Source: a virus
Length of the DNA: 42,819 bases
Reading direction: 5' to 3' (one strand)
IMG/VR virus record: IMGVR_UViG_3300021373_002226
Span: 1 to 42,819 of that record
In this document: in pieces, positions 2,267 to 42,723 of the stretch
Layout: each line of letters begins with the position of its first letter
Numbering within the stretch: position 1 is the stretch's first letter
Made by a program: the position numbers and the translations under genes
Notes under the pieces: model-generated
Seen by the model: the letters and a program-made list of their open reading frames with translations, nothing else
Database searches by the model: none
Told to the model about the DNA's origin: nothing

Positions 2267-2539
2267 TTATTTACAAAATGAGTCAACAAAATTTGACCAC
2301 CCTGCAGGTAACTTATCTGAGAACAATTCTTTTAATTGACTCTTATCAATTTTACCATCTTTCATTGCATTATTTATGTCAGTAAAATTTCTAAATTTAA
2401 TTTCATTACCTTTAGCGTCAGTGTAAGATACTGTCATATCAAAATCATCACCAGTACTTTCATTTAATGTTCTCTTAACAATTTTTCGTAAGTCTGATTC
2501 TGTAAGATTTACGATTTTTCCATTTTTTTTAATTTTCAT
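2267..2539 (-). CDS. Small tagged protein (N-terminal capsid-targeting-like tag)
   Basis: 90 residues. The first 27 residues are a basic tag, MKIKKNGKIVN then LTESDLRKIVKRTLNE, ending in L-N-E, the gp21-type cleavage signature. The tag is almost identical to that of the protein at 34291-34638 (26 of 28 residues), although the mature parts are unrelated and 11 of the 28 codons differ synonymously. The mature part (about 63 residues, e.g. DGKIDKSQLKELFSDKLPAG) is not recognised. It lies between core-type and protease genes and ends at a clear terminator. I infer packaging into the prohead and tag removal. Confidence 0.8.
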   Translation of the reverse strand: MKIKKNGKIVNLTESDLRKIVKRTLNESTGDDFDMTVSYTDAKGNEIKFRNFTDINNAMKDGKIDKSQLKELFSDKLPAGWSNFVDSFCK

Positions 2540-2571
2540 TTTTCTTTTTTTTCCTATTATTATTATTATTA

Positions 2572-3339
2572 TTATATAGATTCATTTAAATCATAAATCT
2601 TACCTATATCCGTTTTAAAATTTTCTAAACTAAAATTAGTATTCAATAACTTATCTTTAACTTTTAAAAGTTTACCTTTCAAATCCAAATCAGAAGACTC
2701 ATTTAATTTATTATCGATAGCATCAATACACTCTCTTTTTAGTTTATTAAATATTTCTTCTTTATCTTCATTACTACCATTAAGAACTGTCTTAATAATT
2801 TCTTTTTCTGATTCTGAAATATTAGAATATCTAGAGTTAAATTTATTAACCGCCAATTTTGTTAATACGCTAGGTGGTAAATCAACACTTTCTGTAACAA
2901 CCTCTTCAGTAGTAACTTCTTTTTCTAACATAGGATTAACAATAAAATTAATTGTTTCATTAATCTTCTTAATATTAGAAGGTGTTTTTTTTGTATTAAC
3001 TAAATATGTTATCTTATTATAAAATTCTTGATTTTCTTTTACAATTTCATTACCTTTAAGAATTTTAAGAAAAAATTCATTTCCTTTATTAATGTGTTCT
3101 TCGTTTAAACCTTTTAACAAATAAATATTTTCTTTAACAAAATCTATAGCCTCAGTTTTATCATCAAATTTAGTGTTTTGTAAATTACTATAAATTAGAT
3201 ACTGATTCTTTAGTGTTTCGTTTTCTTTGATTGTTTTTAAAAACTTAGAAAATAGTTTTTTACCCTTAATGTCTTTTTTAATTGTAGACTCAATAACTAA
3301 ATTTTTAAAGGTATCTTTTATATTACCAAAATTACTCAT
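2572..3339 (-). CDS. Putative prohead core protein
   Basis: 255 residues, almost entirely helical and highly charged (Lys/Glu/Asn-rich). It sits where T4 has the small core genes 67 and 68, between portal and protease, but I see no sequence I can assign to them. It holds several potential gp21 sites, e.g. VVTESVD, KLNESSD and the C-terminal YDLNESI, which would fit a core component degraded during maturation. A late-type promoter precedes it. The stop lies in an (ATT)n run. Confidence 0.6.
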   Translation of the reverse strand: MSNFGNIKDTFKNLVIESTIKKDIKGKKLFSKFLKTIKENETLKNQYLIYSNLQNTKFDDKTEAIDFVKENIYLLKGLNEEHINKGNEFFLKILKGNEIVKENQEFYNKITYLVNTKKTPSNIKKINETINFIVNPMLEKEVTTEEVVTESVDLPPSVLTKLAVNKFNSRYSNISESEKEIIKTVLNGSNEDKEEIFNKLKRECIDAIDNKLNESSDLDLKGKLLKVKDKLLNTNFSLENFKTDIGKIYDLNESI

Positions 3340-3353
3340 GTTCTTTTTTATTA

Positions 3354-3360
3354 ATAAATA
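3354..3360 (-). promoter_or_regulatory. Late-type promoter TATTTAT for core-type gene
   Basis: Minus-strand AATATTTATTAATAAA, 14 nt before the ATG at 3339. Confidence 0.5.
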
Positions 3361-3381
3361 TTCTGAATTTATAAAAAAGAT

Positions 3382-4548
3382 CTATTTTGTTAAATTATCA
3401 ATTTCTTTTGTGATATCACTAATCTTAGAATTTAGTATTTCCGTATCTTTTTCTACGTCATCTAAGTTAAATACCTTTTCATCTTTATCTAAACTTTCCA
3501 TTAGTCTATTTAAATACATACCTTGATATTTTTTAACCTTTTCTTCGTATTTTCTCTTTTCTTGTTCTAATAAAAGATTTTCTTTTTTATCTTTAGTAGA
3601 TTCTACTGCCGTTTCTGTTTCTGCTGCAGATGCTTCACCACCAGCTAAACTATCTGCTGCAGATTCTAAACCACCTGACTCACCACCGAACCCTGCCATT
3701 TCACCGCCAGTATCTCCACCACCTTCTTCACCACCTTCTGCTGGTGCTGCACCTGTCAATGCGGAGAAATCACCGTAAAGTTTATCAACTCTATCAAAGA
3801 TACCTGTTTTCTTAATTACGTTTGCAGTTTGTTCCATTTCTGCTGCTGCCGCTTTTTCTAATCTTTGTTGTTCTAAATCATTTCTAATATCTTCTTCTGA
3901 CATACCTAAGATTTCTTTTCTAGCTCTCGTCATAGACATTGAACCAAAACCGTTACCAGCATCAGATACCGCATCTTTATATAGTGTAACTTTTAATTGA
4001 GTTTGTTCTATCTTTAACATTTCAGCTTGTGTTGAAGGGTTGTTAAGAGTTAAAGTAAAGTTTTCTAATTCATCTTCTAATCCTAAAATATATAAGTGAA
4101 TTATCGCAATCTTATTTAACTCTTGTAACATTGCTTGTTGAATTCTATTAACAGTTCTAGCAAATCTAATATCTTGTAATGCCAAATTTTTACCTTCACC
4201 ATTCACCTCTTCAAAACCTAAAAATGGTTTTGGTACTCTAAGTGCAGTAAATAACTTTTTTTGTAGATACTGTATATCCGCAATCTCCGATAGGTTAGTT
4301 GCACCTGGTAATGTTTCTATGGGTGATGGTGCACTCGCATCCCTAACTGGAATAAAATAGTCCTGATCTTGTGCCATTTGATTATACCTAGTATCTATCT
4401 GTCCTGTGTTTTGATCGATTACAGGACTCCTTTTAAAATTATCAGCAATTTTATTTACATAAGATGGTACATCTTGTTCGTCAATATTACCTACAAATAT
4501 TTTAAATATTCTTCTCTCTGGTGCTCTTGTTACCCTATATATTAGCAT
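3382..4548 (-). CDS. 20: Portal protein, C-terminal part (frame-split gp20-like)
   Basis: 388 residues starting MLIYRVTRAPERRIF, the well-conserved T4 gp20 core motif (YR-SRAPERR). The middle (YLQKKLFTALRVPKPFLGFE) also fits T4-type portals. Residues about 265-300 are a Gly/Ala/Glu-rich linker, followed by a coiled-coil-like tail, making the protein longer than T4 gp20. The start overlaps the stop of the N-terminal part (ATGCTAA), so reinitiation is possible, but conserved portals are continuous here, and adding one base would join the frames exactly. Either a sequencing/assembly indel or a real split gene. Confidence 0.85.
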   Translation of the reverse strand: MLIYRVTRAPERRIFKIFVGNIDEQDVPSYVNKIADNFKRSPVIDQNTGQIDTRYNQMAQDQDYFIPVRDASAPSPIETLPGATNLSEIADIQYLQKKLFTALRVPKPFLGFEEVNGEGKNLALQDIRFARTVNRIQQAMLQELNKIAIIHLYILGLEDELENFTLTLNNPSTQAEMLKIEQTQLKVTLYKDAVSDAGNGFGSMSMTRARKEILGMSEEDIRNDLEQQRLEKAAAAEMEQTANVIKKTGIFDRVDKLYGDFSALTGAAPAEGGEEGGGDTGGEMAGFGGESGGLESAADSLAGGEASAAETETAVESTKDKKENLLLEQEKRKYEEKVKKYQGMYLNRLMESLDKDEKVFNLDDVEKDTEILNSKISDITKEIDNLTK

Positions 4549-5303
4549 TGCGTCTCAGAAAGTAATAATTGTTTCCATATCCTTCTAGCTTTTTCTAACA
4601 TAGATGTACCATATGGAAGTCTTCTATCATCACCTAATAATCTAAAATGTGCAACTTGCCAAGCATTAAATTCAATATCCCTTTGTCCCCATATAAACTT
4701 AACTGGATTAAATTTATCTGTATCAGCATTCATAGAGTTTTCACCAAAACCAGAGTTTTCTTTTCTACTAATTTCTATGTTTGGTAATTGTTTTACACTT
4801 GTCACACCATCGTCACTATCAATACTTAGATATAAAAAGTCATCACCATATTTACAAACATTTCTAGTCCACATTGGTAATGATGTGTGAATATCTAATC
4901 TATTAAAAAATAAATCATCTAATATTCTTCTAACCCTTCTACTTTCAGAAAAAATATTAATCACTTTATTATCTGGATTTAGTGTAGTAGACTCTTCCAT
5001 CATAATATCTAAAGCTGCCGCAATTTCTGGAAAAAATTCCATACCTTCAAAATCTGCATATGAAGCTAATCTAGTAGTTTCATAATATATGGAGTGTTGA
5101 TATATTTCATTATCTACTTTCTGCCATTGATTTGCGAGGTATGCATCTTGTTGTCTTTTTAACTTTTCATAGTCGTACTCTTCTTTAGACTTAGTTTTTA
5201 AAAGTTCTTTATCGTTTATAGAATACCTAGATTTACTTTGTTGACGATTAACGTCAGGTCCAAATAAATCATTTAATTGTTGAAATACTGTTTTTCTTGC
5301 CAT
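4542..5303 (-). CDS. 20: Portal protein, N-terminal part (frame-split gp20-like)
   Basis: 253 residues. It has the T4-type portal N-domain features: YADFEGMEFFPEIAAALDI, LPMWTRNVCKYGDDFLYL and YGTSMLEKARRIWKQLLL. It ends prematurely in SETQC; a conserved portal would continue SEDAMLIYRV, which is restored if one G is inserted after GAG at about 4556. Together the two parts would make about 640 residues. The portal is the dodecameric ring at the packaging vertex through which the terminase (next gene upstream) pumps DNA. Confidence 0.88.
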   Translation of the reverse strand: MARKTVFQQLNDLFGPDVNRQQSKSRYSINDKELLKTKSKEEYDYEKLKRQQDAYLANQWQKVDNEIYQHSIYYETTRLASYADFEGMEFFPEIAAALDIMMEESTTLNPDNKVINIFSESRRVRRILDDLFFNRLDIHTSLPMWTRNVCKYGDDFLYLSIDSDDGVTSVKQLPNIEISRKENSGFGENSMNADTDKFNPVKFIWGQRDIEFNAWQVAHFRLLGDDRRLPYGTSMLEKARRIWKQLLLSETQC

Positions 5304-5357: not shown

Positions 5358-7163
5358 CTATTTAATTCCAAACAACCAATTATAATCACCATTATCATTA
5401 TTACTATTATTTGATTGTTTTGGATTATATGTTGGGGTATTAGTGTAGAAAGGATTTATGTGTTTTTCTTCACTAAACATAGTGTCTCTTTGTTTATTTG
5501 TTGTATTTACCCAACTATCTAACATAGCTTTAGTTTGTTTCTCAACATGTTCTAATTTCTTAAAGGAAGTTTGTATTATAAATATTGCCATCGCATATGC
5601 CATAATTATATCATCATGATAACCTTCCATATGATCAGCCCTACCACCTTTATAAACAAAAGTTCTAAGTTCAGATATCATCCTTTGTGAACGTATAATG
5701 GTTTTATTTTCTCTAATATGTTCTTCTAATTCAGATACCATCTGTAAACGAGTGTTCCCAACATTAAATCCTGGTACTTTATCACCTTGTTTATATGCAG
5801 TTTTTGCGTATTTCTCAGATAATTTTCTACTTTTAGGGTCATCATAATGTAGATGTTTATAGTCCATTTCCAAAAGTTTTAAGACTGTTGCAACACCCAT
5901 ACCACCTGTAATATCTACTATAGTATATGCATTATACATATTACCATACTTATATACCATCTCTGCTAACATATCAGGAGGTAATTTATATTTAAACTCC
6001 GCAACTTGTTCTAAATTCTCAAAATCTAATATCACAATAGTGGAACTATCTTTACCATCCCCTCTACTGACATCAACCCCCATTATGTATTTATGTCCCA
6101 CTTCAGGTTTTTTCCAAATCCACATACTCTTTTCAATCTCAGAAGCAAATTCAGGATCTTTTACGAAATTTTCTTCGTGATATGTTACATACTCATCATC
6201 GACAACATTACCCCCTGAACCAATAAATGATACATCAAGCTCTTGTGCGATTTTTTTAGGGTCACCCATATCTGCAGCCATCTCTTCATACCAAGGGGAT
6301 AAAGGTTTCCAACCATCCTTTATCATTACTTCATAATATTCGATTGTAGATTCATCAGTTTCATATATATTATCCATATATTCCCATCTTAACTTAGTCC
6401 TATCTACCGTATCACATATTATTTCTTCTTTTTCCTCATCTTCACCCCTAACCCAATAAAGTCCTCTATTATACCTAACATCGTGATACCATTTCATTTC
6501 TACTAAGTTGAAGTTATTATCACCTGTTTTAGACTTATCATAGGTTTTATAGTATAGAGGATCCATACCATTTGGTGTAGATATTAATGCAATCTTACCA
6601 CCAGTACCTAACGATGCCAATGCTGCACCAAATACCTCAGAACCGTTGTCAATAAAGGCTGCTTCATCCATAACTAAAAATGTTGGCGTAAAACCCCTTA
6701 ATGCGTCTTTAGATGTTGCAAGTGCTCTAATCTCACAACCATTAGATTTTAATTTAAGGTGTCCCTTTGAGTTTATCTCTAAATAATCACTACCTTCATT
6801 TAAACCCCAAACCCAATAAGGTATCTGATCTAAAAAGTCTTTAACTTTTTTTAAGAATTCTTGTGCTAGTGTCTGTTTGTTCGCCAGTATCAACACTTTA
6901 CTAGGGTTATCGGGGTCACCAAATGCAGATTTGACTGCAATATAAGCGGCAGTAGTAGTAGACACACCTGCCTGTCGAGGTTTGGTAACTAAATTACGAT
7001 TGAACTCTTCATAGGATTTAATTACTTCTTTTTGTTTATAAAACAATTTAAAAGGTACCATACCTTCTTGTGTTAAATCAAATGTCTTTAAAAACGTTTC
7101 AATACCATAAATAGGATCTCCCAAACAACGAGCAAATATTTTCAATTGTTCCGCTCTATCCAT
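5358..7163 (-). CDS. 17: Terminase large subunit, T4 gp17-like
   Basis: 601 residues, the usual length. ATPase domain: Walker A variant TKPRQAGVST (about 60-69), Walker B FLVMDEAAF (D166, E167) and coupling motif LISTPNG (194-199). Nuclease domain, RNase H fold: MGVDVSRGDG with Asp about 364, IVDITGG with Asp about 417, and YHDDIIMAYAM with Asp about 517-518. This is the DNA-packaging motor that cuts concatemers and translocates DNA through the portal encoded next. No N-terminal tag is present, which serves as a negative control for the tag hypothesis. Confidence 0.96.
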   Translation of the reverse strand: MDRAEQLKIFARCLGDPIYGIETFLKTFDLTQEGMVPFKLFYKQKEVIKSYEEFNRNLVTKPRQAGVSTTTAAYIAVKSAFGDPDNPSKVLILANKQTLAQEFLKKVKDFLDQIPYWVWGLNEGSDYLEINSKGHLKLKSNGCEIRALATSKDALRGFTPTFLVMDEAAFIDNGSEVFGAALASLGTGGKIALISTPNGMDPLYYKTYDKSKTGDNNFNLVEMKWYHDVRYNRGLYWVRGEDEEKEEIICDTVDRTKLRWEYMDNIYETDESTIEYYEVMIKDGWKPLSPWYEEMAADMGDPKKIAQELDVSFIGSGGNVVDDEYVTYHEENFVKDPEFASEIEKSMWIWKKPEVGHKYIMGVDVSRGDGKDSSTIVILDFENLEQVAEFKYKLPPDMLAEMVYKYGNMYNAYTIVDITGGMGVATVLKLLEMDYKHLHYDDPKSRKLSEKYAKTAYKQGDKVPGFNVGNTRLQMVSELEEHIRENKTIIRSQRMISELRTFVYKGGRADHMEGYHDDIIMAYAMAIFIIQTSFKKLEHVEKQTKAMLDSWVNTTNKQRDTMFSEEKHINPFYTNTPTYNPKQSNNSNNDNGDYNWLFGIK

Positions 7164-7194: not shown

Positions 7195-8052
7195 TTAAAA
7201 TGCAACTAAATTACCTTCTTCGAAAGCATTATAGTTAGGACCTAATTTATATGTAACATTACTACCACCACCTATCTTTTGTATAATACCAGCAACGTTT
7301 GCGGCACTCCAAAACTGAGAAAATTGTCCTGGCGAATCCTGACTACCAATGTAATTTAAAAACCCTCTCTTTGTTTTTTTAGGGGTGTCATTCATATAGT
7401 TTACTAAATCTCTAATCATAGTATCATCCTTCCTTTTAAAAGTATAACCACCTCTCATTTTTTCAAATAAAACAATCCCATTTTTTTCTGCAAAATCTTT
7501 AACTGTGCGAGAAAGATTTTCTACATCATTTGTATAATTCATACTTTTTTTAATATTAGATGCAATTCTAATTGCTTCTCTAGGTTCATAATTATCAAAT
7601 AAGTAAGATACTACGTCATCAACCATACCACCCATAATTTCTTTTAAAATTTTAGATTCAACACCCCTAATCTCAAACCTATCTACTATTAACTTTTGTA
7701 ACTTACTTAAAGAATTATATTTTTCTAATGGATTTTTATCACTACCAACTATCTCTTCTGTTTCTTCTTCTATAAAGATGTCTAATATTGGGATTAAACG
7801 GGTATCAATCCTTTGTATGTGATACCCTCTTAATCTAGGTAAAATAGTATTTTCAAACCAATCACGTATTTTCTTACTATGTTTAAACATACGTTCATCA
7901 AAACCAAATTCTTTAAAATATACATCTAACGCACTCATAGGGTTTAAAAGTTCAACCCTTTCGAAAAACTTATTAAGAAAACGTTCTTCTTTAGGGTGTA
8001 AATTATCCTCTACTATTCTACTTAATTGACTCTCTGTTAGTTTAATCTTCAT
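7195..8052 (-). CDS. Tagged protein with possible winged-helix C-terminus
   Basis: 285 residues. The N-terminus MKIKLTESQLSRIVEDN is a tag with possible cleavage after I-V-E. The body is helical. The C-terminal 60 residues (GFLNYIGSQDSPGQFSQFW, then SAANVAGIIQKIGG and VTYKLGPNYNAF) read like a compact helix-turn-helix/winged-helix domain with a beta hairpin, so DNA binding is possible but inferred. One nucleotide separates the start from the stop of the upstream gene, indicating an operon. The closest named role I can give is virion-packaged protein. Confidence 0.75.
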   Translation of the reverse strand: MKIKLTESQLSRIVEDNLHPKEERFLNKFFERVELLNPMSALDVYFKEFGFDERMFKHSKKIRDWFENTILPRLRGYHIQRIDTRLIPILDIFIEEETEEIVGSDKNPLEKYNSLSKLQKLIVDRFEIRGVESKILKEIMGGMVDDVVSYLFDNYEPREAIRIASNIKKSMNYTNDVENLSRTVKDFAEKNGIVLFEKMRGGYTFKRKDDTMIRDLVNYMNDTPKKTKRGFLNYIGSQDSPGQFSQFWSAANVAGIIQKIGGGSNVTYKLGPNYNAFEEGNLVAF

Positions 8053-9235: not shown

Positions 9236-10666
9236 TTATATATACTTATGAAGTTTTTCTACAGTTTCAAAATCACCATTGTCTAACGCATCATCAATTA
9301 AATCTTGTATTTCTCTAGGTGACATCTCAGAATAGTCTACTTCTTTAGGTTCAGACACTATAGGTTCTTCTTTAGGTTCATCACCTAAATTGTCTAATAT
9401 ATCATCCATATCATCATATCCAGTATCACCTAAAATATCATCTAAACCTTCTGATGGTTCATCTTCATGAATATCTTTTAGGGTTTGGATAACTTCTTTA
9501 CATTTTTGACTACCACTTAAAATTTCTTTCATAAATTCGTGAAATTGTTTCGCTGGTAACTTAGTTAATTCTTGAAATAACCATTGTTTCATATCGTAAT
9601 TATCACTACCTACACAATCTAAGAATTTTTCCCACATGCCTGGACCTAATCTCATTCCCCAAATCTCACCTTCTACTGTGTCTGCCTTTTTAATTACTTC
9701 CGCCTGTTCTTCAAAGTCTAAGTGTCCATCTGCCCAATTGATTGCAGATAATTCTAATGTCCCTTTGATTAATTCGTGTACTAACAATGGAAATATCCAC
9801 GCTTTTGCAACTACAACAGGAATTTCATCATCTTCTTCGATATCTACTTTTTCCATTTCTTCTTCTTCATCCTCATCTTCTGGCGCCTCAGCTTTTCTCC
9901 ATTCTATCTTCTCTACACCACCAGTTTGTCCACCCATTGCACTATCAGGTATAATCCAATATTGGAAATCTGCAAGTGACATAAGTTTACCATATAATCC
10001 CATAAGTCTAGGGTCGATAGAATCTAATTCATCTGCAACCATATGGAAAATATAGTGTCCTTTTTTAGAAGCTCCTTGCATCAAAGCGTTTATAACTCTC
10101 CTTTTGTCAACTTCCATTTCTAACTCTTCCATTCTTTGTGCACTTTTTGGTGATTTAGGAACATTAAAGTCAGAATCATAATCATCATCTTCTTCTTCTT
10201 CTTCATCATCCCCAAAACCTAAATCAGTACCTGGAGGTGAAAGGGTTGCCTCTAACATTTGATCTGGAATATCAAACTCTTCTGATACAATATCTATCGC
10301 TAATTGTTCTAACGCATCTTTATGTCTTGTTTCTATTTGACTTACTTCACTCATTATCTGAAACATTTGTTGCATCATCATAGGGCTTATGTTTTGTATC
10401 CCATGATATCTTTTTACTTTATTAATGATTTCTTTAAATCTTTTACTAGCCATTTTTTCAGAATAATTTTGTAAATCAGAACCCACAGGCATAGACTTAC
10501 TTTTACCAAAAATATGTTCACCACTTTTAAGTTTACCTTCTATATCTGGATTCATTCTTTCGGGATGTTCTGGATCATATTCAATTGCTTCTACAATCCT
10601 ATTAATTCTTAATTTCTCACTAAGAACTCTTTTTGTAACTTCACTTATAATATTTTTTCTTTTCAT
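9236..10666 (-). CDS. Tagged acidic virion-type protein
   Basis: 476 residues. The tag is MKRKNIISEVTKRVLSE, ending L-S-E. Residues about 150-165 and 265-285 are Asp/Glu runs; between them is a folded part with HYIFHMVADELDSID and FQYWIIPDSAMGG, then an IFPLLVHELIKGTLELSAIN segment. LVHELIKG places a His-Glu pair in a helix, but no full HExxH motif is present. It is the last gene of an operon with 10685-14597, before a terminator. Large size and acidic low-complexity segments suggest an abundant internal or structural protein; exact role unknown. Confidence 0.75.
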   Translation of the reverse strand: MKRKNIISEVTKRVLSEKLRINRIVEAIEYDPEHPERMNPDIEGKLKSGEHIFGKSKSMPVGSDLQNYSEKMASKRFKEIINKVKRYHGIQNISPMMMQQMFQIMSEVSQIETRHKDALEQLAIDIVSEEFDIPDQMLEATLSPPGTDLGFGDDEEEEEDDDYDSDFNVPKSPKSAQRMEELEMEVDKRRVINALMQGASKKGHYIFHMVADELDSIDPRLMGLYGKLMSLADFQYWIIPDSAMGGQTGGVEKIEWRKAEAPEDEDEEEEMEKVDIEEDDEIPVVVAKAWIFPLLVHELIKGTLELSAINWADGHLDFEEQAEVIKKADTVEGEIWGMRLGPGMWEKFLDCVGSDNYDMKQWLFQELTKLPAKQFHEFMKEILSGSQKCKEVIQTLKDIHEDEPSEGLDDILGDTGYDDMDDILDNLGDEPKEEPIVSEPKEVDYSEMSPREIQDLIDDALDNGDFETVEKLHKYI

Positions 10667-10684: not shown

Positions 10685-11473
10685 TTACCAATCATAAACT
10701 ACTGATGTCCACATACGGAAAGCTTCATTGGCTAATTTTTCAAACACTCTCTGTACGTTTCTAGTTTCGTGGTCACCATTAGTTCTATCAATTCTTTTTA
10801 ATGCTGCTCTGATTAATACATCTCTAACTGCTTGTTTTTTCTCTAGTAAATAGTTAATGATTTCTATTTTTTCTTCTAATGAATCTAATTCACTTTGATA
10901 TAAACCAATGTCTTCCCCTTCGTTTTCTATATCATACTCTAATTCTTCTTTTTGTTGTTCTAAAGACTCTAAATCCATGCTTTGTCCGTATAACCATCTA
11001 TGTAGATCTTTTTTAGTCCAATTAAGTATTGGGGCTGCACCAAACATGTTAATGAGTCCACTTTCCCTAAGTTTTTCTAACCAACCTACAATTACACTAA
11101 ATTCCCTTCTATCTAATTCTGGTACAATATATAATTTTTTACCTCTAGACTCATTCATTGTTTTCTTAGTATTTACGTATTCTATTAACTCACCTTTTTT
11201 CATTTTAGGATTAATAGATTCTTTTCTTCTATGTGGTTTCTTTATAGAACCTTCATAACCTATAGATGCGGTACAAACTGCATATGGGTTATAATCTTCT
11301 CCCCTTTCTTTATTTTGTTTTTTTACATCTTTAACGCAACGTTCCCACTTTTTTTTATGGATTGGGCTTTCTTTTTCCTTTTTGGACTCGTTTATATTAA
11401 AATAATATTTACTTTGTTTTTTATTTAAAAAATTCTCAGTCATTATTTTTTTTAATATGTCCTTTTTTTTCAT
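10685..11473 (-). CDS. Tagged protein with coiled coil
   Basis: 262 residues. The N-terminus MKKKDILKKIMTEN is a tag-like helix ending in M-T-E, a weaker variant. Residues about 38-75 contain KKWERCVKDVKKQNK and NPYAVCTASIGYEG, a small two-Cys segment, then a REFSVIVGWLEKL part and a strong coiled coil (about 165-215). The first base of its ATG is the last base of the upstream stop codon (TAATG), so translation is probably coupled to 11473-12012. Unknown function, probable virion component. Confidence 0.75.
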   Translation of the reverse strand: MKKKDILKKIMTENFLNKKQSKYYFNINESKKEKESPIHKKKWERCVKDVKKQNKERGEDYNPYAVCTASIGYEGSIKKPHRRKESINPKMKKGELIEYVNTKKTMNESRGKKLYIVPELDRREFSVIVGWLEKLRESGLINMFGAAPILNWTKKDLHRWLYGQSMDLESLEQQKEELEYDIENEGEDIGLYQSELDSLEEKIEIINYLLEKKQAVRDVLIRAALKRIDRTNGDHETRNVQRVFEKLANEAFRMWTSVVYDW

Positions 11474-12012
11474 TATCTTTTATTTAAGAATTTTTTAAAT
11501 AAGTCTTTTGTTGATTCGTTTTTAGTTGTTACTGTCATCCCACCATCTTTATCTAGTGTGACAGACCCATCAACAGATATACCTACACCTTCTTGTTCTG
11601 CTCTTTTTACTTCATCTGGTGTATATTTGGTTTGTTTAACAGTTGTTTCTTCCGCCTCACCAATATAGGAACCATCTTCGTCATATTGGTTACTAACATC
11701 TATTGGTTCTGGATAGTCTCTGTAGTCAGGTTGTACTGGTGCATTTCTCATATAAATCTCAGGATATTGTTTCGCCATTCTTTTTAAGATTGCGTCTGGA
11801 TTTTTTCTCATATATCTAATAACCGCAGGATCCATATCGTCACCATACTTACCAAATACCCCCTCAATACCTTTTTCTCTAGGTGTTGGTTTAAAATCTC
11901 TTTTACTATAAGTGTCTCTCATCTCATAGTCTTCATCTAAATAATTTTCCATCAACTTACGTCTAGTTGCTCTTTTAATTTCTGATTCGTAAATTTTTAT
12001 TTTCTTTCCCAT
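11473..12012 (-). CDS. Tagged small protein
   Basis: 179 residues. The tag MGKKIKIYESEIKRATRRKL ends in L-M-E. The body is rich in Tyr, Asp and Pro and looks partly disordered (PVQPDYRDYPEPIDVSNQYD), with a C-terminal DGSVTLDKDGGMTVTTKNES beta segment. Four nucleotides after the upstream gene. No recognised domain. Confidence 0.75.
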   Translation of the reverse strand: MGKKIKIYESEIKRATRRKLMENYLDEDYEMRDTYSKRDFKPTPREKGIEGVFGKYGDDMDPAVIRYMRKNPDAILKRMAKQYPEIYMRNAPVQPDYRDYPEPIDVSNQYDEDGSYIGEAEETTVKQTKYTPDEVKRAEQEGVGISVDGSVTLDKDGGMTVTTKNESTKDLFKKFLNKR

Positions 12013-27318: not shown

Positions 27319-27369
27319 AATATATATTTTTTATATGTTAATAATAATGAAATTTTACAATAATGTCAA

Positions 27370-29496: not shown

Positions 29497-29790
29497 TTAA
29501 CTATATTTTTTTATAATTTCGTTTATTTTATTAATTATGTTCATACTTTCATCTCTTTCTTCCCACACTTTATCATTACCACTCTGTATTGACATTCTTA
29601 ACTTTTCTAAGTCTCTTATCATATCTTCATTGTTAGTTTGATATGCGAATTGTATTGCAGACTCTATATATCTAAGTCCCTCTGCGAAACTATCTGCCGC
29701 CTTATGTAGTAAATCAATACTAATCTCAGTAATATCTTTAGTTTCTGTTTTAAACTCTTCTTTTAATATATTCTTTATTAATCGTTTCAT
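29497..29790 (-). CDS. Small tagged protein
   Basis: 97 residues. Tag MKRLIKNILKE (L-K-E), sharing its form with 28204-29244 and 29263-29496, as if the tag itself had been duplicated. The rest is a helical bundle (DLLHKAADSFAEGLRYIESA). It overlaps the upstream gene by 4 nt. Confidence 0.7.
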   Translation of the reverse strand: MKRLIKNILKEEFKTETKDITEISIDLLHKAADSFAEGLRYIESAIQFAYQTNNEDMIRDLEKLRMSIQSGNDKVWEERDESMNIINKINEIIKKYS

Positions 29791-30878: not shown

Positions 30879-31838
30879 TTAATAATGATCTATCCTATCC
30901 AATAATATCTCATTAAAATACTTCCAATCAATATCACCCGCACCACCATATCTAAAATGTTTATAGGTGTTTATTGATATACAATCTTCTGGTAAGAAAG
31001 AGTTGTATTCCATTCCCCACCCTTCTCTTTCGTCCTCCAGTATACCATCTAAAATTTCTAAAAATGTTGGGTATCCATGTGTTAATTCTGCGTTCAGTTG
31101 TGATTTAAATCTTTCTGATGATGCAATATCACCTAATTCTACTTGTCCTACGTATTCTAAACCAAATCCTTTAACACCTCCTTCATCTGTTTGATTTTGT
31201 AAACCCCCATCAAAATTGGATAAATAATCTGTTATACCTTCTTCGAAGTCTGAGTGTAATGCATCTATGTCCGCACTATGTTGAGCGTCCCCTAATGCAC
31301 AACCAATATAATCACCAAACTCTTCTTCAACAAATTCTTTAAAATCTTCTTCAGAAGGTTCACCCTCTAAATTCTTTAAATAATGTTCCTTCATTATACC
31401 TAAATTCTCTTTATCTATTTTATCAAAATAGTGATCGTCATAATCATAACAATCGTAATGTGCACCATAATCATAATCAAAACTAAAATATTTTCTAACC
31501 ATATCTCGAATACCATAATCTCTATCATCACAAAAGAAAGATGACATTTCCGAAGGGAAAAAACTAATTTTTATATATGAATTGGGTCTATCTTTATGTT
31601 CAGTTAAATATTTATAGATTATATTACTTTCTAGGTCCGTAGTTTGAATATTTTTATCATCAAGCTTTAAATTCTGTAAAAAATCAAAAATAAAATTAGG
31701 GTTAGATTCTATATGTTTATCAAAAATTCTGAATATCTTTTGATATACCTTTTCAGGGAACATTTGTTTTTCGAAGATTGTTTTATCATCTTCATTATCT
31801 TCATCATATTCCCTTAATATTTTTCTAATTAAGTCCAT
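30879..31838 (-). CDS. Tagged acidic protein, family A
   Basis: 319 residues. Tag MDLIRKILRE (L-R-E). Very acidic and aromatic (FSFDYDYGAHYDCYDYDDHY, then FDKIDKENLGIMKEH). Resembles the protein at 8054-9154 at two separated segments, suggesting a family. Function unknown. Late-type promoter 18 nt upstream, next to the divergent host-type promoter of gene 31899. Confidence 0.75.
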   Translation of the reverse strand: MDLIRKILREYDEDNEDDKTIFEKQMFPEKVYQKIFRIFDKHIESNPNFIFDFLQNLKLDDKNIQTTDLESNIIYKYLTEHKDRPNSYIKISFFPSEMSSFFCDDRDYGIRDMVRKYFSFDYDYGAHYDCYDYDDHYFDKIDKENLGIMKEHYLKNLEGEPSEEDFKEFVEEEFGDYIGCALGDAQHSADIDALHSDFEEGITDYLSNFDGGLQNQTDEGGVKGFGLEYVGQVELGDIASSERFKSQLNAELTHGYPTFLEILDGILEDEREGWGMEYNSFLPEDCISINTYKHFRYGGAGDIDWKYFNEILLDRIDHY

Positions 31839-33148: not shown

Positions 33149-33358
33149 CACTTCTGGTATTCTAACACACTGTGACATATTACCATTACTATCTGTACAA
33201 CCAATTACCTCTAAACTCCTAACAATATTTTTAATATCTCTGTTTGCGTTTCTTGTGATATTCTCTATATATTGTTTTGAATATAATTTATCTGAATCGT
33301 AATAAGATTCCTTTAAAATGGTTTTATATTGTTTTTCATTTATAATAATTTTCATCAT
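33119..33358 (-). CDS. Small tagged protein
   Basis: 79 residues. Tag MMKIIINEKQYKTILKE (L-K-E). The start is ATG 33358 or the adjacent ATG 33355; the sequence ATGATG overlaps the upstream TGA, so translation is coupled. The mature part has two Cys (EVIGCTDSNGNMSQCVRIPE), a motif echoed in the protein encoded upstream (GCTDGNGNRLCSVIPEPI). Unknown function. Confidence 0.7.
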   Translation of the reverse strand: MMKIIINEKQYKTILKESYYDSDKLYSKQYIENITRNANRDIKNIVRSLEVIGCTDSNGNMSQCVRIPEVLFVYISGRY

Positions 33359-34245
33359 TTTTTCCTTTCACAACATTCCACACATTTCCTCATTTGACGA
33401 AATGGTGCGGGTCCACCACTTACGGACACACATTTACCTTTTGATGGGTCATAATAATAACCCATTACTGCAGTAGTCATTCTTCCAAATGGAATTGGTT
33501 CTGGTATTACACTACACAAACGGTTTCCATTTCCATCTGTACAACCCTCTTTTGGGTTAGGTGTATCAGGTAAATCTACATCATTTAACCCCAGACACCC
33601 CCTAAAACCTGTAAAGTCAACTTTTCCTGATGGTAATAACCCTTTATCGGTAAGAATATATTTATAAACACAAGATTTTAATGTTTCACATTTAACTTTA
33701 TTTAATGGGTTATAAACACCAATATCATCAAAATCTATCTCTTTACTTTTTATAGGAGATTTTCTTTTTGGGAATGGTTCATCAGAAGACAATTTTTTAC
33801 ATTGACATTGTTTAATACATAATTTATTATAAGCTTCTAAAGTTTCTTTACGTGTTGCTGATCCTGGTTTAAGTACTTCACACATTTTATTTAAAGTATC
33901 GTAACCAACTACACCATCCACACTTAACTTATACTTCCTTTGAAATTCTATAACCGCATTTTTAGTGTGTTTCCTATATTTTCCGTCACAACCTTGATAT
34001 AGGTCACCACACTCCAAACCAATACCACCACCTTGATATTTTGGGTTAAATCCATTCACCGCTAAAAGGTGTTGTATATATTTAACCACATCACCATTAG
34101 AACCCGATTTTGCTAGTTTTCTTTTACAGTGAATATCACAAGGGACATCACCTACTTGTATTGATCCACCTTCATAGGATTCAGATATTACTCTTTTTAC
34201 AATTCTTTGTAAATCTGATTCTTTTAATTTAATTACTTTTTTCAT
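33355..34245 (-). CDS. Tagged peptidoglycan-binding protein
   Basis: 296 residues. Tag MKKVIKLKESDLQRIVKRVI then S-E (I-S-E). Residues about 45-125 form a peptidoglycan-binding type-1 domain: DVVKYIQHLLAVNGFNPKY, then TKNAVIEFQRKYKLSVDGVV and GYDTLNKMC. The C-terminal part is Cys-rich (GCTDGNGNRLC, KCVECCERKK), probably disulphide or metal bonded, with no catalytic motif seen. It would bind cell wall, fitting the lysin group nearby. Confidence 0.78.
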   Translation of the reverse strand: MKKVIKLKESDLQRIVKRVISESYEGGSIQVGDVPCDIHCKRKLAKSGSNGDVVKYIQHLLAVNGFNPKYQGGGIGLECGDLYQGCDGKYRKHTKNAVIEFQRKYKLSVDGVVGYDTLNKMCEVLKPGSATRKETLEAYNKLCIKQCQCKKLSSDEPFPKRKSPIKSKEIDFDDIGVYNPLNKVKCETLKSCVYKYILTDKGLLPSGKVDFTGFRGCLGLNDVDLPDTPNPKEGCTDGNGNRLCSVIPEPIPFGRMTTAVMGYYYDPSKGKCVSVSGGPAPFRQMRKCVECCERKK

Positions 34246-34290: not shown

Positions 34291-34638
34291 TTAATTTTTA
34301 ATCCCTGGAATATTTCTGTCATTGGGACATATATATTGACCCCCATTTGAACTCTCTACCCAGTCCACTCTCGAAGCCGCAAATCCGTTTTGGTTCCATG
34401 TTTCACCACCAAACTTAAAATTAGTAACATATTCTTTACCATCCTTACAACCTTCAAAACTATCGCTCCCATATCTTTCTTTACACATTGTACTATAATA
34501 TTTATCATAGTTAAAATCACCATCCTTACAAAATTGTTTTTCTAAAACGTTTGTAGATTCATTTAATACTCGTTTAACGATTTTTCTTAAATCACTTTCG
34601 GTTAGATTAACAACTTTTCCGTTTTTTTTAATTTTCAT
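34291..34638 (-). CDS. Small tagged protein
   Basis: 115 residues. The tag (KIKKNGKVVNLTESDLRKI then VKRVLNE) is the near-twin of that at 2267-2539, 32 kb away. The mature part has four Cys (FCKDGDFNYDKYYSTMCKER, GCKDGKEY, YICPNDRN) and no recognised family. Late-type promoter 15 nt upstream. Confidence 0.75.
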   Translation of the reverse strand: MKIKKNGKVVNLTESDLRKIVKRVLNESTNVLEKQFCKDGDFNYDKYYSTMCKERYGSDSFEGCKDGKEYVTNFKFGGETWNQNGFAASRVDWVESSNGGQYICPNDRNIPGIKN

Positions 34639-35425: not shown

Positions 35426-36970
35426 TTATCCATATCCGAAACCACCTGACATTTTGGGTGTTTTTGGATATTTTTTCTTTTTTTCTGGAGATAATTTATT
35501 ATACATTATATTATATAGTATTTCTTCTTCTGACTTTTGAAATTTAGGTTCTAATGTGTCAGGTGATTTCACACTATAATTCAATGCGAAAGGTAAACAT
35601 TGGGTTTTATTTTCATATGTTTTTTGTACTTCCTCAACATAACCAATAGAAGTCTTACCTTTGTGTTCTAAATATGGGAAATAACCCACAATCCATTGAT
35701 CTTGATAAACTGTAAGTATACCCACATCTTTAGGGTTTCCTTTATCATATGGGCGATATGTTTTTTTATTACATGGTGCAGCAAAATTTTCATTATTAGT
35801 TTTACAATATTTTTGTATTTTTTCTGGTCCCATATTATGTGCTAAAATTGCTAAATCTAAAGAAACATTACCTGAACCATCTATTGTAAACATTTTAGTC
35901 TTACCTTCTGCCCTTCTTTTATCATCTACACGTTTTTTAGTTATTGGATTAACTGAAGGTGTAGTACCTACACCCCTACTAATACTTAATTTATAATCTT
36001 TCCATATTCTATACATTATACCAAGTATTTGTTTACCCCAATTAAATGAATAATTATATTCTCCTACTACTTTATCTAAACCATATTTGTACCAAGTATT
36101 TTTAGTAAATTGTCCGACACCTAAACTTTGTCCACTATATTTTTTAGGTAATAAAGACCCCATACCCATACCCCTAATAAGTTCAGCGTAATCATCTCTG
36201 TCTGTAGTAGTCTTACCCATTTTAGTTTCTCTTTGTGTTGTACCTATAGCATATCTCATAATAGTTAAAAGAGTTTCATCGTTAGACATCCCCATACTTT
36301 TTTTAACCTTATCTCTATTTTCCCATATAATCCACAGTGCAATTGATAGTGGAGGGTTATCACCTAAACAACTAAAATTATTTATAACTTCTTTAGTTAA
36401 TTTTGACATATTCGCACTAGGACCATAAAAATCGCCAAAAAGTCCATCTCGTTTACCACCAAAGATGTCTAATAAAAATTTTTCTGCATCAACATCAGTC
36501 CTTAGACCACCGACCCCATACTGATCTAAAATATCTTTTTCTTTTTTAGTAAAACTTATCGCATTTTCAACCTCTTTTGGTATTTGTTTATCCCAATTCT
36601 TATAATCTATATCTTTTCCTTTGGTATTTTTATAACCGACTTTTTTAATTATATCGGATAATACTTTCGCCATTTTAGGTCCAAAAATTTTACCTGTTTT
36701 ACTACCTAAATCATAACCCTCTTTAGTTAATTTATCGTATAACTTACCAACGGTATCAACATTTCTATCTTCATTAATACCATAATAATATCTAACAAAT
36801 GCCTTCGCACTATGATCTCTAAAATCACCATCAATATCACTTTCATTAGGTAACCAACCATCTACAAATAAAAACTTCTGTATCTGATATGCATTTGCTT
36901 CAGGATAGGTTTCTTCAGTTAATATACCAATAATTTTTTTTAATTGTTGTTCTTTAATAATAATTTTCAT
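35426..36970 (-). CDS. Tagged lytic transglycosylase-like protein
   Basis: Start at ATG 36970 (514 residues), because MKIIIKEQQLKKIIGILTE is a tag ending L-T-E; the ATG at 37000 would add ten residues inside the upstream gene. Residues about 235-390 fit a lysozyme-like/SLT fold: TTQRETKMG with a catalytic Glu (about 248), SLGVGQFTKNTWYKYG and LAILAHNMGPEKI. About residues 25-110 look like a divergent repeat for wall binding (FGPKMAKVLSDII). Cuts glycan strands. Third lysin of the cassette 39190-35426. Confidence 0.8.
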   Translation of the reverse strand: MKIIIKEQQLKKIIGILTEETYPEANAYQIQKFLFVDGWLPNESDIDGDFRDHSAKAFVRYYYGINEDRNVDTVGKLYDKLTKEGYDLGSKTGKIFGPKMAKVLSDIIKKVGYKNTKGKDIDYKNWDKQIPKEVENAISFTKKEKDILDQYGVGGLRTDVDAEKFLLDIFGGKRDGLFGDFYGPSANMSKLTKEVINNFSCLGDNPPLSIALWIIWENRDKVKKSMGMSNDETLLTIMRYAIGTTQRETKMGKTTTDRDDYAELIRGMGMGSLLPKKYSGQSLGVGQFTKNTWYKYGLDKVVGEYNYSFNWGKQILGIMYRIWKDYKLSISRGVGTTPSVNPITKKRVDDKRRAEGKTKMFTIDGSGNVSLDLAILAHNMGPEKIQKYCKTNNENFAAPCNKKTYRPYDKGNPKDVGILTVYQDQWIVGYFPYLEHKGKTSIGYVEEVQKTYENKTQCLPFALNYSVKSPDTLEPKFQKSEEEILYNIMYNKLSPEKKKKYPKTPKMSGGFGYG

Positions 36971-36974: not shown

Positions 36975-38288
36975 CTAACCAACTTTTTTAGTCCAAGCAA
37001 TTCTTAAATTATCTGCGGGTTCACTAATAACATTACCACCTATATTGTGAAATACAATAGGTTTACCATATTTTGTTGCCCCAACTATACCTAAGTGAGT
37101 ATTCATACCCCATCCAGTACCATTTTTTATGGTATTACCAGGTTGTCTATTCCCTTCAGTTCCTGTAAACCATTTATCACCAGCCTGAAAAAATGCTTCT
37201 TGATGGTGTTTTGAGGGGTAATAAAATATACCTACAACATCATCCATATCTATATTTTTTACTGTACCCTTTGCGGGCACTAAACTATCTACTAAATCTC
37301 TTACTTTAGTATTAAAACTACCATTTTCTTTAGCACCTTCACCTGATTTGTCTATTTTCTGATATAATTCGATAATTTTATCTATTTTGTCTTTTGGGAG
37401 ATTTTTAAACGCTGAGTATGAGGTTGGTCCAATTTTAGAATCATAATCATGCGCTAACCAAGCACTACCTGTTGCATCAAACTGATTACTAAAATTATTT
37501 ACGAATTGGGCACATTGTAAAGTTCCTGGGTTAGCAATTATACCATCTACTTTTTTCGTACTATTAATTTTATCAGTTTTAATTTTGTTTTGATATCTTG
37601 GATTCATATTTGTAGATAGTACTAATCCTGTACCACCTCCACCTTTTAATTTATTCCATTTAGGATTTTTTAATTTATAATATTCAAAAACTCTGATTCT
37701 ATCACCATTTTTATATTTTAACACTTGATTTAAAGTATTTAAAACATAACTATTTTTATAAGAAGTAGTTTCAGAAGGTGGGTCTAGTTTATGTTTTTTA
37801 GCAGTATTCGGTAGATTATCGTTTACCCATTTTCTAAATTCATCACCCTGTTCTTTATTACTAAATGGTGTTTTAGTTAATTTTTCACTATAAACTCTCC
37901 ACCCCTCTTCTTTTTTAGGTGGTATAGGTTTTGTTTCATCATCCTGTTCTTTTCCTTCTCCCGCAGAATTTAAATACTTAATTGTTTTTTCACCTGCTTG
38001 TCCGTCCCATTCCATGTAATTGTTTGGGAAAGCTAATTTTTGTACTTTTTTAACTGCAGCTTTAGTTTTACTACCATAAGAACCATCTACACCATCACTA
38101 TTAGGTCCACTACTACCTAAACCATAACCAAGTTCCTTTAACCTTCTTTGTAATTTTTTTACATCATCACCCTCAGAACCAACCACTAAAACTCTTTTAG
38201 GGGGGTAAGTTAAAATAATTACTTCATTTAATATTCTCTGATTAGCTTCTTTTATTAAATGTCTCTTTTGTTTTTCTATTCTACCCAT
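36975..38288 (-). CDS. Tagged CHAP/NlpC-like peptidoglycan amidase with PG-binding domain
   Basis: 437 residues. Tag MGRIEKQKRHLIKEANQRIL then N-E (L-N-E), of the same subtype as 39220-39519. Residues about 33-107 are a peptidoglycan-binding type-1 domain (SEGDDVKKLQRRLKELGYGL). In the C-terminal half, NPGTLQCAQFVNNF (Cys about 259) and NTHLGIVGATKYGKPIVFHN (His about 398 and 414) make a papain-like Cys-His arrangement. Predicted amidase/endopeptidase of the wall. Confidence 0.75.
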   Translation of the reverse strand: MGRIEKQKRHLIKEANQRILNEVIILTYPPKRVLVVGSEGDDVKKLQRRLKELGYGLGSSGPNSDGVDGSYGSKTKAAVKKVQKLAFPNNYMEWDGQAGEKTIKYLNSAGEGKEQDDETKPIPPKKEEGWRVYSEKLTKTPFSNKEQGDEFRKWVNDNLPNTAKKHKLDPPSETTSYKNSYVLNTLNQVLKYKNGDRIRVFEYYKLKNPKWNKLKGGGGTGLVLSTNMNPRYQNKIKTDKINSTKKVDGIIANPGTLQCAQFVNNFSNQFDATGSAWLAHDYDSKIGPTSYSAFKNLPKDKIDKIIELYQKIDKSGEGAKENGSFNTKVRDLVDSLVPAKGTVKNIDMDDVVGIFYYPSKHHQEAFFQAGDKWFTGTEGNRQPGNTIKNGTGWGMNTHLGIVGATKYGKPIVFHNIGGNVISEPADNLRIAWTKKVG

Positions 38289-38299: not shown

Positions 38300-39190
38300 T
38301 TAAATGTATTCATATAATGATGTAGATGTTTGTATACCAACTATACCATCAACCGTTAGATTTTCGTCTCTTTGAAATTCTTCTACTGCTTTCTTAGTCA
38401 TAAACCCAAATATACCATCAACCCCATCTTCGGCATCTTCAAAACTACCTAAATCATAATTTAAGTTACGTAATATCCTTTGTATTTCTAAAACACCTTC
38501 ACCATTACTACCTACAGAAATTAATTCTCTATTATCCCCATTTTCTATAATATCTTCTATAGTTAAATTATTTTTACTAACAACACCATCAACCTTTTCT
38601 ACGACATCTTCTTTGTCTATAATAAATATTTTATCTCCTTTTAGTGAAGAATTTAAATAAGGCCAAGGATCGATACTACCTTTACGATAATCTTTTTTGT
38701 AAACTGAAAAATGTAAGTGTGGGTGAGTACCTTTAGCGTTCCCAGTATCACCAACAGTACCTATAAACATTCCTTTATATACCTCATCACCTATATCTAA
38801 ATCATTACGAACACTATCTAAATGTGCGTAATAATAATTTTTACCATCATCACCTAATATATTTATAGTGTTACCACCAATACGGTTATTTCTAATATTA
38901 CTTATTTTTGAAACAACACCGTTTACACAAGAAACTAAAGGTGTTCCTTTTGGTGCGAAAATATCTATACCTAAATGACCACCTCTAGATTTGTGAGCTG
39001 CATCTCCTCCACCGTAGTCTGAATTGTGTATTGAATCGTATCTGTCTAATACTTTAGGTGTCACATTAGATCCCAAACCTTGCGAATCATAACCAACATT
39101 AAAATTATCATTCCCAATGGGAAAAATAAAGTTAGACTCGTTTATCCTATAAATTTTTTTTAGTTGGTTTTCTGTTATTATAATTTTCAA
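38300..39190 (-). CDS. Tagged M23 peptidase with PG-binding domain (TTG start)
   Basis: 296 residues. Start codon is TTG at 39190, forced by the tag KIIITENQLKKIYRINES (I-N-E); no ATG fits. M23/LytM zinc motifs: GHLGIDIFAP (His 72, Asp 76) and HPHLHFS (156-162), with YYAHLDS between. C-terminal residues about 226-294 are a peptidoglycan-binding domain (GVLEIQRILRNLNYDLG, AVEEFQRDENLTVDG). Cleaves peptide cross-links. First lysin of the cassette. Confidence 0.9.
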   Translation of the reverse strand: MKIIITENQLKKIYRINESNFIFPIGNDNFNVGYDSQGLGSNVTPKVLDRYDSIHNSDYGGGDAAHKSRGGHLGIDIFAPKGTPLVSCVNGVVSKISNIRNNRIGGNTINILGDDGKNYYYAHLDSVRNDLDIGDEVYKGMFIGTVGDTGNAKGTHPHLHFSVYKKDYRKGSIDPWPYLNSSLKGDKIFIIDKEDVVEKVDGVVSKNNLTIEDIIENGDNRELISVGSNGEGVLEIQRILRNLNYDLGSFEDAEDGVDGIFGFMTKKAVEEFQRDENLTVDGIVGIQTSTSLYEYI

Positions 39191-39219: not shown

Positions 39220-39519
39220 TTAAATATCTAATCTATTGAGGTTTCCATCATTATCAGTATCTTCATAATCAGAACCATCTCTTTTAGTATTCATCCAGTC
39301 AGAAAATAAATCGCTATATTCATTTGTGGATAACTGGTTAATTAAATCCTCGCCCATATGACTTTCAAACTCTTCCATCCACATAGGTGATAAATCACCA
39401 TATCCGAATTTAAATTTCATATCTTCTAAAACTTTATCTATATCTACCACACTTTCACCTAACAGTTTTTTATTAGACTCTTCCATCATCAACCTTTTTA
39501 ATTTAGATATTCTTCCCAT
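39220..39519 (-). CDS. Small tagged protein
   Basis: 99 residues. Tag MGRISKLKRLMMEESNKKLL then G-E (L-G-E), the same MGRI-K-KR subtype as the CHAP-type lysin downstream. The mature part is acidic and ends in DYEDTDNDGNLNRLDI, an Asp-rich loop similar to the one in 12414-14597. Heads the lysin operon. Confidence 0.7.
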   Translation of the reverse strand: MGRISKLKRLMMEESNKKLLGESVVDIDKVLEDMKFKFGYGDLSPMWMEEFESHMGEDLINQLSTNEYSDLFSDWMNTKRDGSDYEDTDNDGNLNRLDI

Positions 39520-40458: not shown

Positions 40459-40472
40459 ACTTATTTTATATT

Positions 40473-41257: not shown

Positions 41258-41301
41258 ATTGTTTAAATTTTTTCCAATGTGAAGGTATTAATTTCATACC
41301 T

Positions 41302-41958
41302 TTAAAAAACTGGAAGTTCGTATGATGATGTACCATCGCTAGATTTACTTTTTTTAGTTTTTTCACCATCAGAATAATTATCAAAATCTTTATTGTTGAT
41401 ATTTTGATTAGAATGTTGTGGGTAGTCATTTGGTCTATTATACCTATAAAAAACTTGTTTAAAACTATTTTCCCCGCCATCATATATATAATCGTTTACT
41501 TTTTCTAATTTAAAATTACCATCTTTGTTTAATCCAGCCTTTATGATATTGTTTTTTAATGATTCCACATCGTTTCCTGAATTTCGTGAAGTAGATCTAT
41601 TTATTATATCGTTATTACATCCAGCACCTCTACTAGTGAATCCTAACCACGCATTTCCATCTTCACTCTTATCGATAATTACTTCCCAGTTTACTGTTTG
41701 TTTATTTACATCAACATTAACCTTTGTAACCTTTGGGTTATACCCCAATTCATATAATCGTTTTAACTCATCACCAACAATAACATTCATATTACCAATT
41801 ACTACACCACCAGTAGACTGAAAAGCATGTAATTCATCACAGTTAGAAGCAGTGTACTTATCTCTAATTGAAACGGGGAAAGAAACTTGTTGTTCGGATA
41901 ATAGATTTAAACCCATTAACCTTCTTATGTAATTTGTTTCGTCTATTTTTGTTTTCAT
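41302..41958 (-). CDS. Tagged hypothetical protein
   Basis: 218 residues. Tag MKTKIDETNYIRRLMGLNLL then S-E (L-S-E). The mature part has a beta-rich OmpA-like look: GGVVIGNMNVIVGDELKRLY, NPKVTKVNVDVNKQTVNWEV. Two Cys (SNCDEL, GAGCNND). The C-terminus is hydrophilic. Not assigned. Confidence 0.7.
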   Translation of the reverse strand: MKTKIDETNYIRRLMGLNLLSEQQVSFPVSIRDKYTASNCDELHAFQSTGGVVIGNMNVIVGDELKRLYELGYNPKVTKVNVDVNKQTVNWEVIIDKSEDGNAWLGFTSRGAGCNNDIINRSTSRNSGNDVESLKNNIIKAGLNKDGNFKLEKVNDYIYDGGENSFKQVFYRYNRPNDYPQHSNQNINNKDFDNYSDGEKTKKSKSSDGTSSYELPVF

Positions 41959-41967
41959 TGTTGATGT

Positions 41968-42372
41968 TTAATTAATTTTTTTTATTTCATAGGGTTTAAT
42001 ATTCTCTTTATGGTACCCCTGATGTTCATAGTTTTCCCACTTACCAATGTAAAACTCATATTCATCAATTACATTGTTCTCTGTATAATTAAAGAAATTT
42101 AAAGTCCCAGTTTCTCCTTCTTTAATTTCATTATTTTTACTACTTATTACTTTAATATCGTAAGTAAAGTTTCCTGGTTCATTAATTACCACATCTGATG
42201 TTAATTCTACTGTAAATCCACCCTCATCATATTTAATTTTATCACCCGATTCAAAAAACTCTATTGTTTTTGTGTCTGAGGATTCTTTTATCATCGACTC
42301 TGTAATAACATCACCTTTTTTATATGTAAAAAGATATTTAACCTTGTTTACTTCTTCATTTAAATTTTTCAT
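41968..42372 (-). CDS. Tagged hypothetical protein
   Basis: 134 residues. N-terminus MKNLNEEVNKVKYLFTYKKG then DVITES, a different tag form ending I-T-E (or cut earlier at L-N-E). The mature part is a beta-rich domain (GGFTVELTSDVVINEPGNFT). In a three-gene operon 42723-41302. Confidence 0.65.
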   Translation of the reverse strand: MKNLNEEVNKVKYLFTYKKGDVITESMIKESSDTKTIEFFESGDKIKYDEGGFTVELTSDVVINEPGNFTYDIKVISSKNNEIKEGETGTLNFFNYTENNVIDEYEFYIGKWENYEHQGYHKENIKPYEIKKIN

Positions 42373-42378
42373 AATATT

Positions 42379-42723
42379 TTATTTAAATTTCTTCTTTATT
42401 TCTTCTACTTTTGATATAATTTCATATTTAGGAGTATCGAATAGTTTTTCTTTTTTGAAAACAGTATCACAAACACCATATTGTATCCACCATTTTCTAT
42501 CGTTTTTGTTTTGAATAACTTGTAGAGTTTTAGGTGTGTTATTGTTACAATCTTTTAACCTACTTCTATAATCGTATTGAGTAAAATTTTCTAGTTTTTT
42601 AATTTTAAACCCCATATTAATTAATTTTTTCCCAATGTCATCATCAGAAACTAAAGTCTTATTTTCTTTTAATACTTCTTTAATAATTCTTTTAATATCT
42701 CTATCGGTTAATTTTATCTTCAT
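42379..42723 (-). CDS. Tagged hypothetical protein
   Basis: 114 residues. Tag MKIKLTDRDIKRIIKEVLKE (L-K-E), close in form to 2267 and 34291. The mature part (DDDIGKKLINMGFKIKKLEN, RKWWIQYGVCDTVF) has two Cys and no known motif. First gene of its operon, late-type promoter at leaderless spacing. Confidence 0.72.
   Translation of the reverse strand: MKIKLTDRDIKRIIKEVLKENKTLVSDDDIGKKLINMGFKIKKLENFTQYDYRSRLKDCNNNTPKTLQVIQNKNDRKWWIQYGVCDTVFKKEKLFDTPKYEIISKVEEIKKKFK

Follow-up and report, generated by a model that had tools for sequence, protein, structure and literature searches.

In bacteriophage T4, the internal proteins IPI, IPII and IPIII carry a short N-terminal capsid-targeting sequence (CTS) that is processed by the gp21 protease, which cuts according to the rule L/I-x-E (PMC9026906). 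Replacement of the glutamate by an aspartate at this position blocks processing but not targeting, and for IPIII the tag has been shown to be sufficient to bring a foreign protein into the head (PMC9026906). T4 has three internal proteins, at least 10 kinds have been described across its relatives, and IPs 1-3 block host restriction enzymes (PMC12373910). In phages of the phiKZ/SPN3US type, many different head and ejection proteins are processed after a glutamate by a gp21-related protease (PMC9026906); in phiKZ the rule is S/A-x-E, and we know of no shared short tag. In phage P1, which belongs to a different phage family, a few anti-restriction proteins, DarA/Hdf, are associated with head morphogenesis (PMC12810830). 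Injected phage proteins are among the first to meet host defences, yet few of them are known outside T4 and a few jumbo phages.

Here, we analyzed a 42,819-nt virus record from IMG/VR (IMGVR_UViG_3300021373_002226), hereafter the window, which encodes a T4-type terminase, a T4-type portal and a gp21-type protease. The original prediction, made from the sequence alone, was that unrelated proteins of the window share an N-terminal basic amphipathic tag ending in (I/L)-x-E, and that the phage packages a large, diverse cargo of proteins with its genome. The presence of the tags was confirmed and the proposed interpretation is supported by our sequence analyses, although packaging, cleavage and injection are inferred. 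Compared with T4, roughly 20-40 genes per genome carry a tag in this group of uncultured T4-like phages, and many tags are longer (16-31 residues) and fall into several families not seen in T4.

N-terminal tags in the window and in related genomes

Translation of the 27 genes listed in the original prediction showed that all of them begin with a short basic tag. At the proposed boundary, 25 of the 27 tags end in strict (I/L)-x-E, while the other two end in M-T-E and V-N-E (Table 1). Of the 27 genes, 26 lie on the minus strand, together with the head genes. As stated in the original prediction, the terminase, portal, methyltransferase, Hsp20, SprT-like and ClpC proteins lack the tag. Three gene starts were revised: gene 24237 probably starts at the internal ATG at 25049, gene 27381 is on the plus strand inside a longer ORF that starts at 27363, and gene 38300 starts with TTG. 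Additionally, one gene that was not listed, located between those of the portal and the protease, has a conserved N-terminal (V/I/L)-x-E/S and probably encodes a head or core protein. In gene 27815, with the start MKLLDLVLKD, the E has been lost.

Table 1. Features of the window. A slash marks the predicted boundary of each tag.
Position	Strand	Feature	Tag end	Gene	Remarks
917..1606	-	gp21-type prohead protease (Peptidase_S77)			Pfam PF03420, E=5.9e-23; orthologues 82-93% identical in five relatives
2459..2539	-	Class A tag	...LTESDLRKIVKRTLNE/ST	2267-2539
2572..3339	-	Probable head/core protein	MSNFGNIKDTFKNLVIE/S		Orthologues QLIIE/S, SILAE/S, KIILE/S
3382..5303	-	T4-type portal gene, split into two frames at about 4542/4548			Portal_T4 in both halves; intact in relatives G001-G004 and G006
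5358..7163	-	T4-type terminase large subunit (untagged)			Pfam Terminase_6N
8008..8052	-	Class A/B tag	MKIKLTESQLSRIVE/D	7195-8052	Orthologues end KIISE/N, KLLSE/D
10616..10666	-	Tag	MKRKNIISEVTKRVLSE/K	9236-10666	Conserved in five relatives
11435..11473	-	Weak tag	MKKKDILKKIMTE/N	10685-11473	M-T-E end, not strict; not conserved in orthologues
11947..12012	-	Tag	...KRATRRKLME/N	11473-12012
14505..14597	-	Tag	...MDRMNTLTE/S	12414-14597	Orthologues TLNE/S, TINE/S
19207-21666		ClpC-like protein (untagged)			Also encoded in relative G001
22440..22514	-	Class A tag	...LTESEMVSLIERIVNE/V	22371-22514	V-N-E end, internal L-I-E
24139..24186	-	Class B tag	MKYIISENQYKILLKE/D	22540-24186	WCTR motif + LRR protein
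24999..25049	-	Class B tag	MKIIITENQLERIILNE/N	24237-25049	Cell wall hydrolase (Hydrolase_2)
26313..26351	-	Class C tag	MKLSESIRNILKE/E	25488-26351
27036..27083	-	Class B tag	MKIRITESQLNKVLNE/V	26571-27083
27381..27407	+	T4-like short tag	MKLYDLINE/E	27381-27818
29212..29244	-	Class C tag	MKRLIRKIIKE/E	28204-29244	HExxH protein
29464..29496	-	Class C tag	MKNRIKKILKE/E	29263-29496
29758..29790	-	Class C tag	MKRLIKNILKE/E	29497-29790
30778..30855	-	Tag	...NLLMEMRGHLINE/T	30214-30855	Conserved in four relatives
31809..31838	-	Class C tag	MDLIRKILRE/Y	30879-31838
33308..33358	-	Class B tag	MMKIIINEKQYKTILKE/S	33119-33358	Orthologues IINE/S, ILNE/S
34180..34245	-	Class A tag	...ESDLQRIVKRVISE/S	33355-34245	PG_binding_1
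34558..34638	-	Class A tag	...LTESDLRKIVKRVLNE/ST	34291-34638
36914..36970	-	Class B tag	...QQLKKIIGILTE/E	35426-36970
38223..38288	-	Class E tag	MGRIEKQKRHLIKEANQRILNE/V	36975-38288	PG_binding_1
39137..39190	-	Class B tag (TTG start)	MKIIITENQLKKIYRINE/S	38300-39190	Peptidase_M23 + PG_binding_1
39454..39519	-	Class E tag	MGRISKLKRLMMEESNKKLLGE/S	39220-39519
41893..41958	-	Class D tag	MKTKIDETNYIRRLMGLNLLSE/Q	41302-41958
42298..42372	-	Class D-like tag	MKNLNEEVNKVKYLFTYKKGDVITE/S	41968-42372
42664..42723	-	Class A-like tag	MKIKLTDRDIKRIIKEVLKE/N	42379-42723

Relatives of the window identified by their terminase reach 166 kb, while the nearest named phages, Microcystis phage Mel-JY01 and Flavobacterium phage immuto, are only 28-33% identical in terminase. 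To compare the tags with chance, we used an 8-residue scorer trained only on window tags, which gave an N-terminal hit in 20 of 61 window proteins, against 2.2 expected from the internal rate and 3.3 from shuffled N-termini. An N-terminal excess was also found in five relatives that were not used in the training, with 49 of 237 proteins (7.9 and 9.2 expected, respectively) in the 166-kb relative G001, 31 of 173 (7.1; 6.4) in G003 and 26 of 242 (4.2; 8.9) in G002. No excess was observed in phi38:1 (2 against 1.6) and crAss001 (1 against 3.4), two Bacteroidota phages that lack S77. A more conservative, rule-based detector with six tag classes counted 19 of 61 in the window (0.6 in shuffles), 42 in G001 (3.0), 25 in G002 (2.1), 29 in G003 (2.0), 29 in the record G015 (3.0), 24 in the 294-kb relative G014 (3.7) and 0 in both S77-less phages. 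Hits were biased to the head strand in five of seven genomes. In P-SSM2 and HTVC008M, the window-trained scorer found little (9 against 5.9 and 5 against 3.7, respectively), though P-SSM2 has T4-form starts such as MKSFSQFLTE/T. A tblastn search of the 27-residue tag against named phages gave no hit, probably because the query was too short.

A smaller set of tags is present in the cultured Flavobacterium phage immuto (Immutovirus), whose terminase is only 28% identical. This phage has S77 and about 8 tagged genes (1.5 in shuffles), for example MKKQILSEQFRRMQKLAGIITE/S.

Conservation at the tag boundary

Using a DNA pattern for TE(S)DLxRIVxRV, we recovered at least 120 stretches in viral contigs. 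From all loci, class A tags were collected with a pattern that ends at column 12 and were reduced to 195 tags with less than 60% identity over tag plus body; the columns that follow were never constrained by the search. These columns, 13-15, read I/L in 83%, any residue, and E in 89% of the tags, and the information falls from 2.90 bits at the E to 1.09, 0.33, 0.25, 0.22 and 0.07 in the columns that follow. In this fixed register, 160 of the 195 tags have strict (I/L)-x-E, and E outnumbers D 174 to 3, against 620 to 640 in the bodies (p=1e-44). The 195 tags are located on 157 unrelated body clusters, 134 of them single. Position P3 is I in 137, L in 25, V in 11 and S or A in 3 of the 195 tags, which does not correspond to the S/A-x-E rule of phiKZ.

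Class C (MKxLIKxILKE/E) and class D (RIKxMMGxxxE/) tags, which were collected with other patterns, also tend to end in (I/L)-x-E, and in an alignment of 85 tagged proteins the only near-invariant column is that E. The short form MKLYDLINE/E resembles the T4 tag MKTYQEFIAE/A, while the long classes A, B, D and E do not. As a positive control, the T4-form pattern recovered T4 proteins that appear to be the known substrates (IPs, gp22 and gp24). Nevertheless, it also picked the T4 DNA ligase (MILKILNE/I), a false positive; single hits of the short form are therefore weak evidence. The class A pattern gave one hit in 84,980 bacterial and archaeal genomes, in a Tannerellaceae MAG, which is antisense to the genes and so spurious.

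The prohead protease and the major capsid protein

The major capsid protein of the clade, encoded outside the window, contains the sequence ALLNE/S. In an alignment of eleven capsid proteins, this E falls on that of T4 FLTE/AEIGG, apparently the gp23 processing site, and the immuto capsid protein has V-S-E at the aligned place.

S77 was identified in all ten of the largest terminase relatives. Of 21 tag-bearing records over 90 kb, 16 have S77, and these are exactly the 16 with a T4 portal, while the five others also show no terminase match. The largest exception, of 274 kb, lacks precisely the head module, since its two ends match the genes that flank that module in G014. Taken alone, however, the presence of S77 in tag-bearing records is not significant, as 5 of 11 random large viral contigs also have it.

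Tag exchange, tagged proteins and virion data

Orthologous proteins may carry unrelated tags joined at the same boundary. Window gene 33355 has a class A tag, while its orthologue in G002 has an unrelated class E tag, and some orthologues have no tag, as in the comparison of window gene 8054 with G003 71579. Tagged proteins matched only 7 Pfam families (10 hits among 85 proteins), mostly peptidoglycan-active (peptidoglycan-binding, M23 and LysM) or unknown, and they are nearly free of replication and metabolic enzymes. In contrast, an equal untagged set matched 86 families, including gp32, portal, Hsp70, ClpB-type proteins and many enzymes.

No virion proteome was found for this clade. Nevertheless, a homologue of window gene 22540, EST35_0205 of Pseudomonas phage PA5oct, has been recorded as a structural protein by ESI-MS/MS. 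This homologue lacks the tag of the window and has a different, T4-like start, MKLFEVFTLYE/D, and PA5oct has S77. Across PA5oct, our preset patterns were not enriched among the 90 MS-detected proteins (2/90 against 5/415, p=0.61, for the T4-form pattern; 11/90 against 35/415, p=0.31), although PA5oct is distant and its MS list includes tail proteins and metabolic enzymes; EST35_0205 thus remains a single, indirect supporting case. Homologues of four other tagged proteins in named phages gave no further MS evidence.

Proposed role of the tags

Based on these results, we propose, with fairly high confidence, that the tags are capsid-targeting sequences of the T4 type, scaled up and diversified into several families. 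In this model, the basic amphipathic helix docks each precursor onto the prohead core while the head is being built, and the S77 protease then cuts after (I/L)-x-E, leaving the mature protein inside the head to be injected with the DNA. Docking, cutting, packaging and injection are inferred from the tags, their shared end, the protease, the equivalent site in the major capsid protein and the exchange of tags between genes. If the tags are import signals, injected proteins, most of them with no known function, can be listed from sequence alone in many uncultured phages, and the tags would offer new, mutually different addresses for loading proteins into phage heads. No paper containing the tag motifs was found among the 5.39 million open papers searched. 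A broader possibility, which we consider somewhat more likely than not, is that the tags represent a general protein-import code of phage heads, in which several unrelated tag families, possibly with separate docking sites on the core, bring some 20-40 different proteins per phage into the head and are all cut by one protease. Such a code would be widespread in uncultured T4-like and jumbo phages and would mark a large set of unknown injected effectors.

The tags are strongly amphipathic and basic, with a mean hydrophobic moment of 0.72 against 0.29 in the bodies and a net charge of +3.4; they could act as uncut docking helices for the assembly of the head core, neck or tail, in which a helix end could favor E. 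This alternative seems unlikely, since it does not explain the presence of E but not D, of I/L two residues before it and the absence of conservation after it in several unrelated tag families with different spacing, nor the same triplet at the processing site of the capsid protein. Basic amphipathic helices may also bind membranes or DNA, and the tags could target proteins to another cell structure during infection and be trimmed later by another protease. This is also improbable, as the apparent cutting rule equals that of S77 and of the capsid protein site, and no other protease with that rule was identified here.

The ClpC-like protein encoded in the window and in G001 raises the possibility of a degradation or unfoldase signal that keeps late proteins scarce. 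We regard this as very unlikely, because such a signal does not explain the (I/L)-x-E boundary or the capsid protein match, and T4 uses the same kind of tag and appears to have no ClpC of its own. Equally doubtful is a DNA-level element, such as a recombination hot spot or a translation leader, with an incidental peptide. Third codon bases are somewhat more alike in tags (0.55) than in bodies (0.43), so the tags share some recent ancestry. Nevertheless, amino acids are 63% identical while synonymous bases are near background, and unrelated tag families converge on the same peptide end.

Predicted organization of two tagged proteins

The predicted fold of the gene 22540 product was of low confidence. 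The product of gene 28204 consists of the tag, a variable middle, a second conserved (I/L/M)-x-E at residue 233 (INE233/S in the window) and a conserved HExxHH domain. Its AlphaFold model has two low-confidence stretches, 1-15 and 217-233, which are the two predicted cut regions. A PDB search by sequence gave nothing, while the C-terminal part of the model weakly resembles small metallopeptidases such as selecase and IrrE, with no match below E=0.001.

Additional features of the window and of related phages

Coordinates of additional features in the window
Positions	Feature
3382-5303	Portal gene
17687-18145	Hsp20
19207-21666	ClpC-like unfoldase
22540-24186	Protein with conserved motif and leucine-rich repeats
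27815-28216	Gene whose tag has lost the E
28204-29244	HExxH protein

In the window, the portal gene is split by a frame change near 4542-4548, while it is intact in all of the relatives read; an assembly error is most likely. The phage-encoded ClpC-like unfoldase and Hsp20, located near the packaging genes, are both untagged.

The HExxH protein has two predicted S77 sites, at E11 and E233, both of which are located in low-confidence stretches of the model, and it may be released as two mature parts. In the case of the gene at 27815, the orthologues begin with MKLLDLILE|D or MKLLDIISE|D, while the window copy, MKLLDLVLKD, has lost the E; this natural variant may be targeted but not cut.

T4-like jumbo phages near 290 kb, represented by the genomes G014 (293850 bases) and G015 (274138 bases), carry the same tags plus a further class, ITEEERxRIL...LxE. 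Additionally, the leucine-rich repeats of the protein at 22540 are preceded by a conserved ESSCxPLGPLASWCTRREGN motif, and a homologue of this protein is a virion protein in PA5oct.
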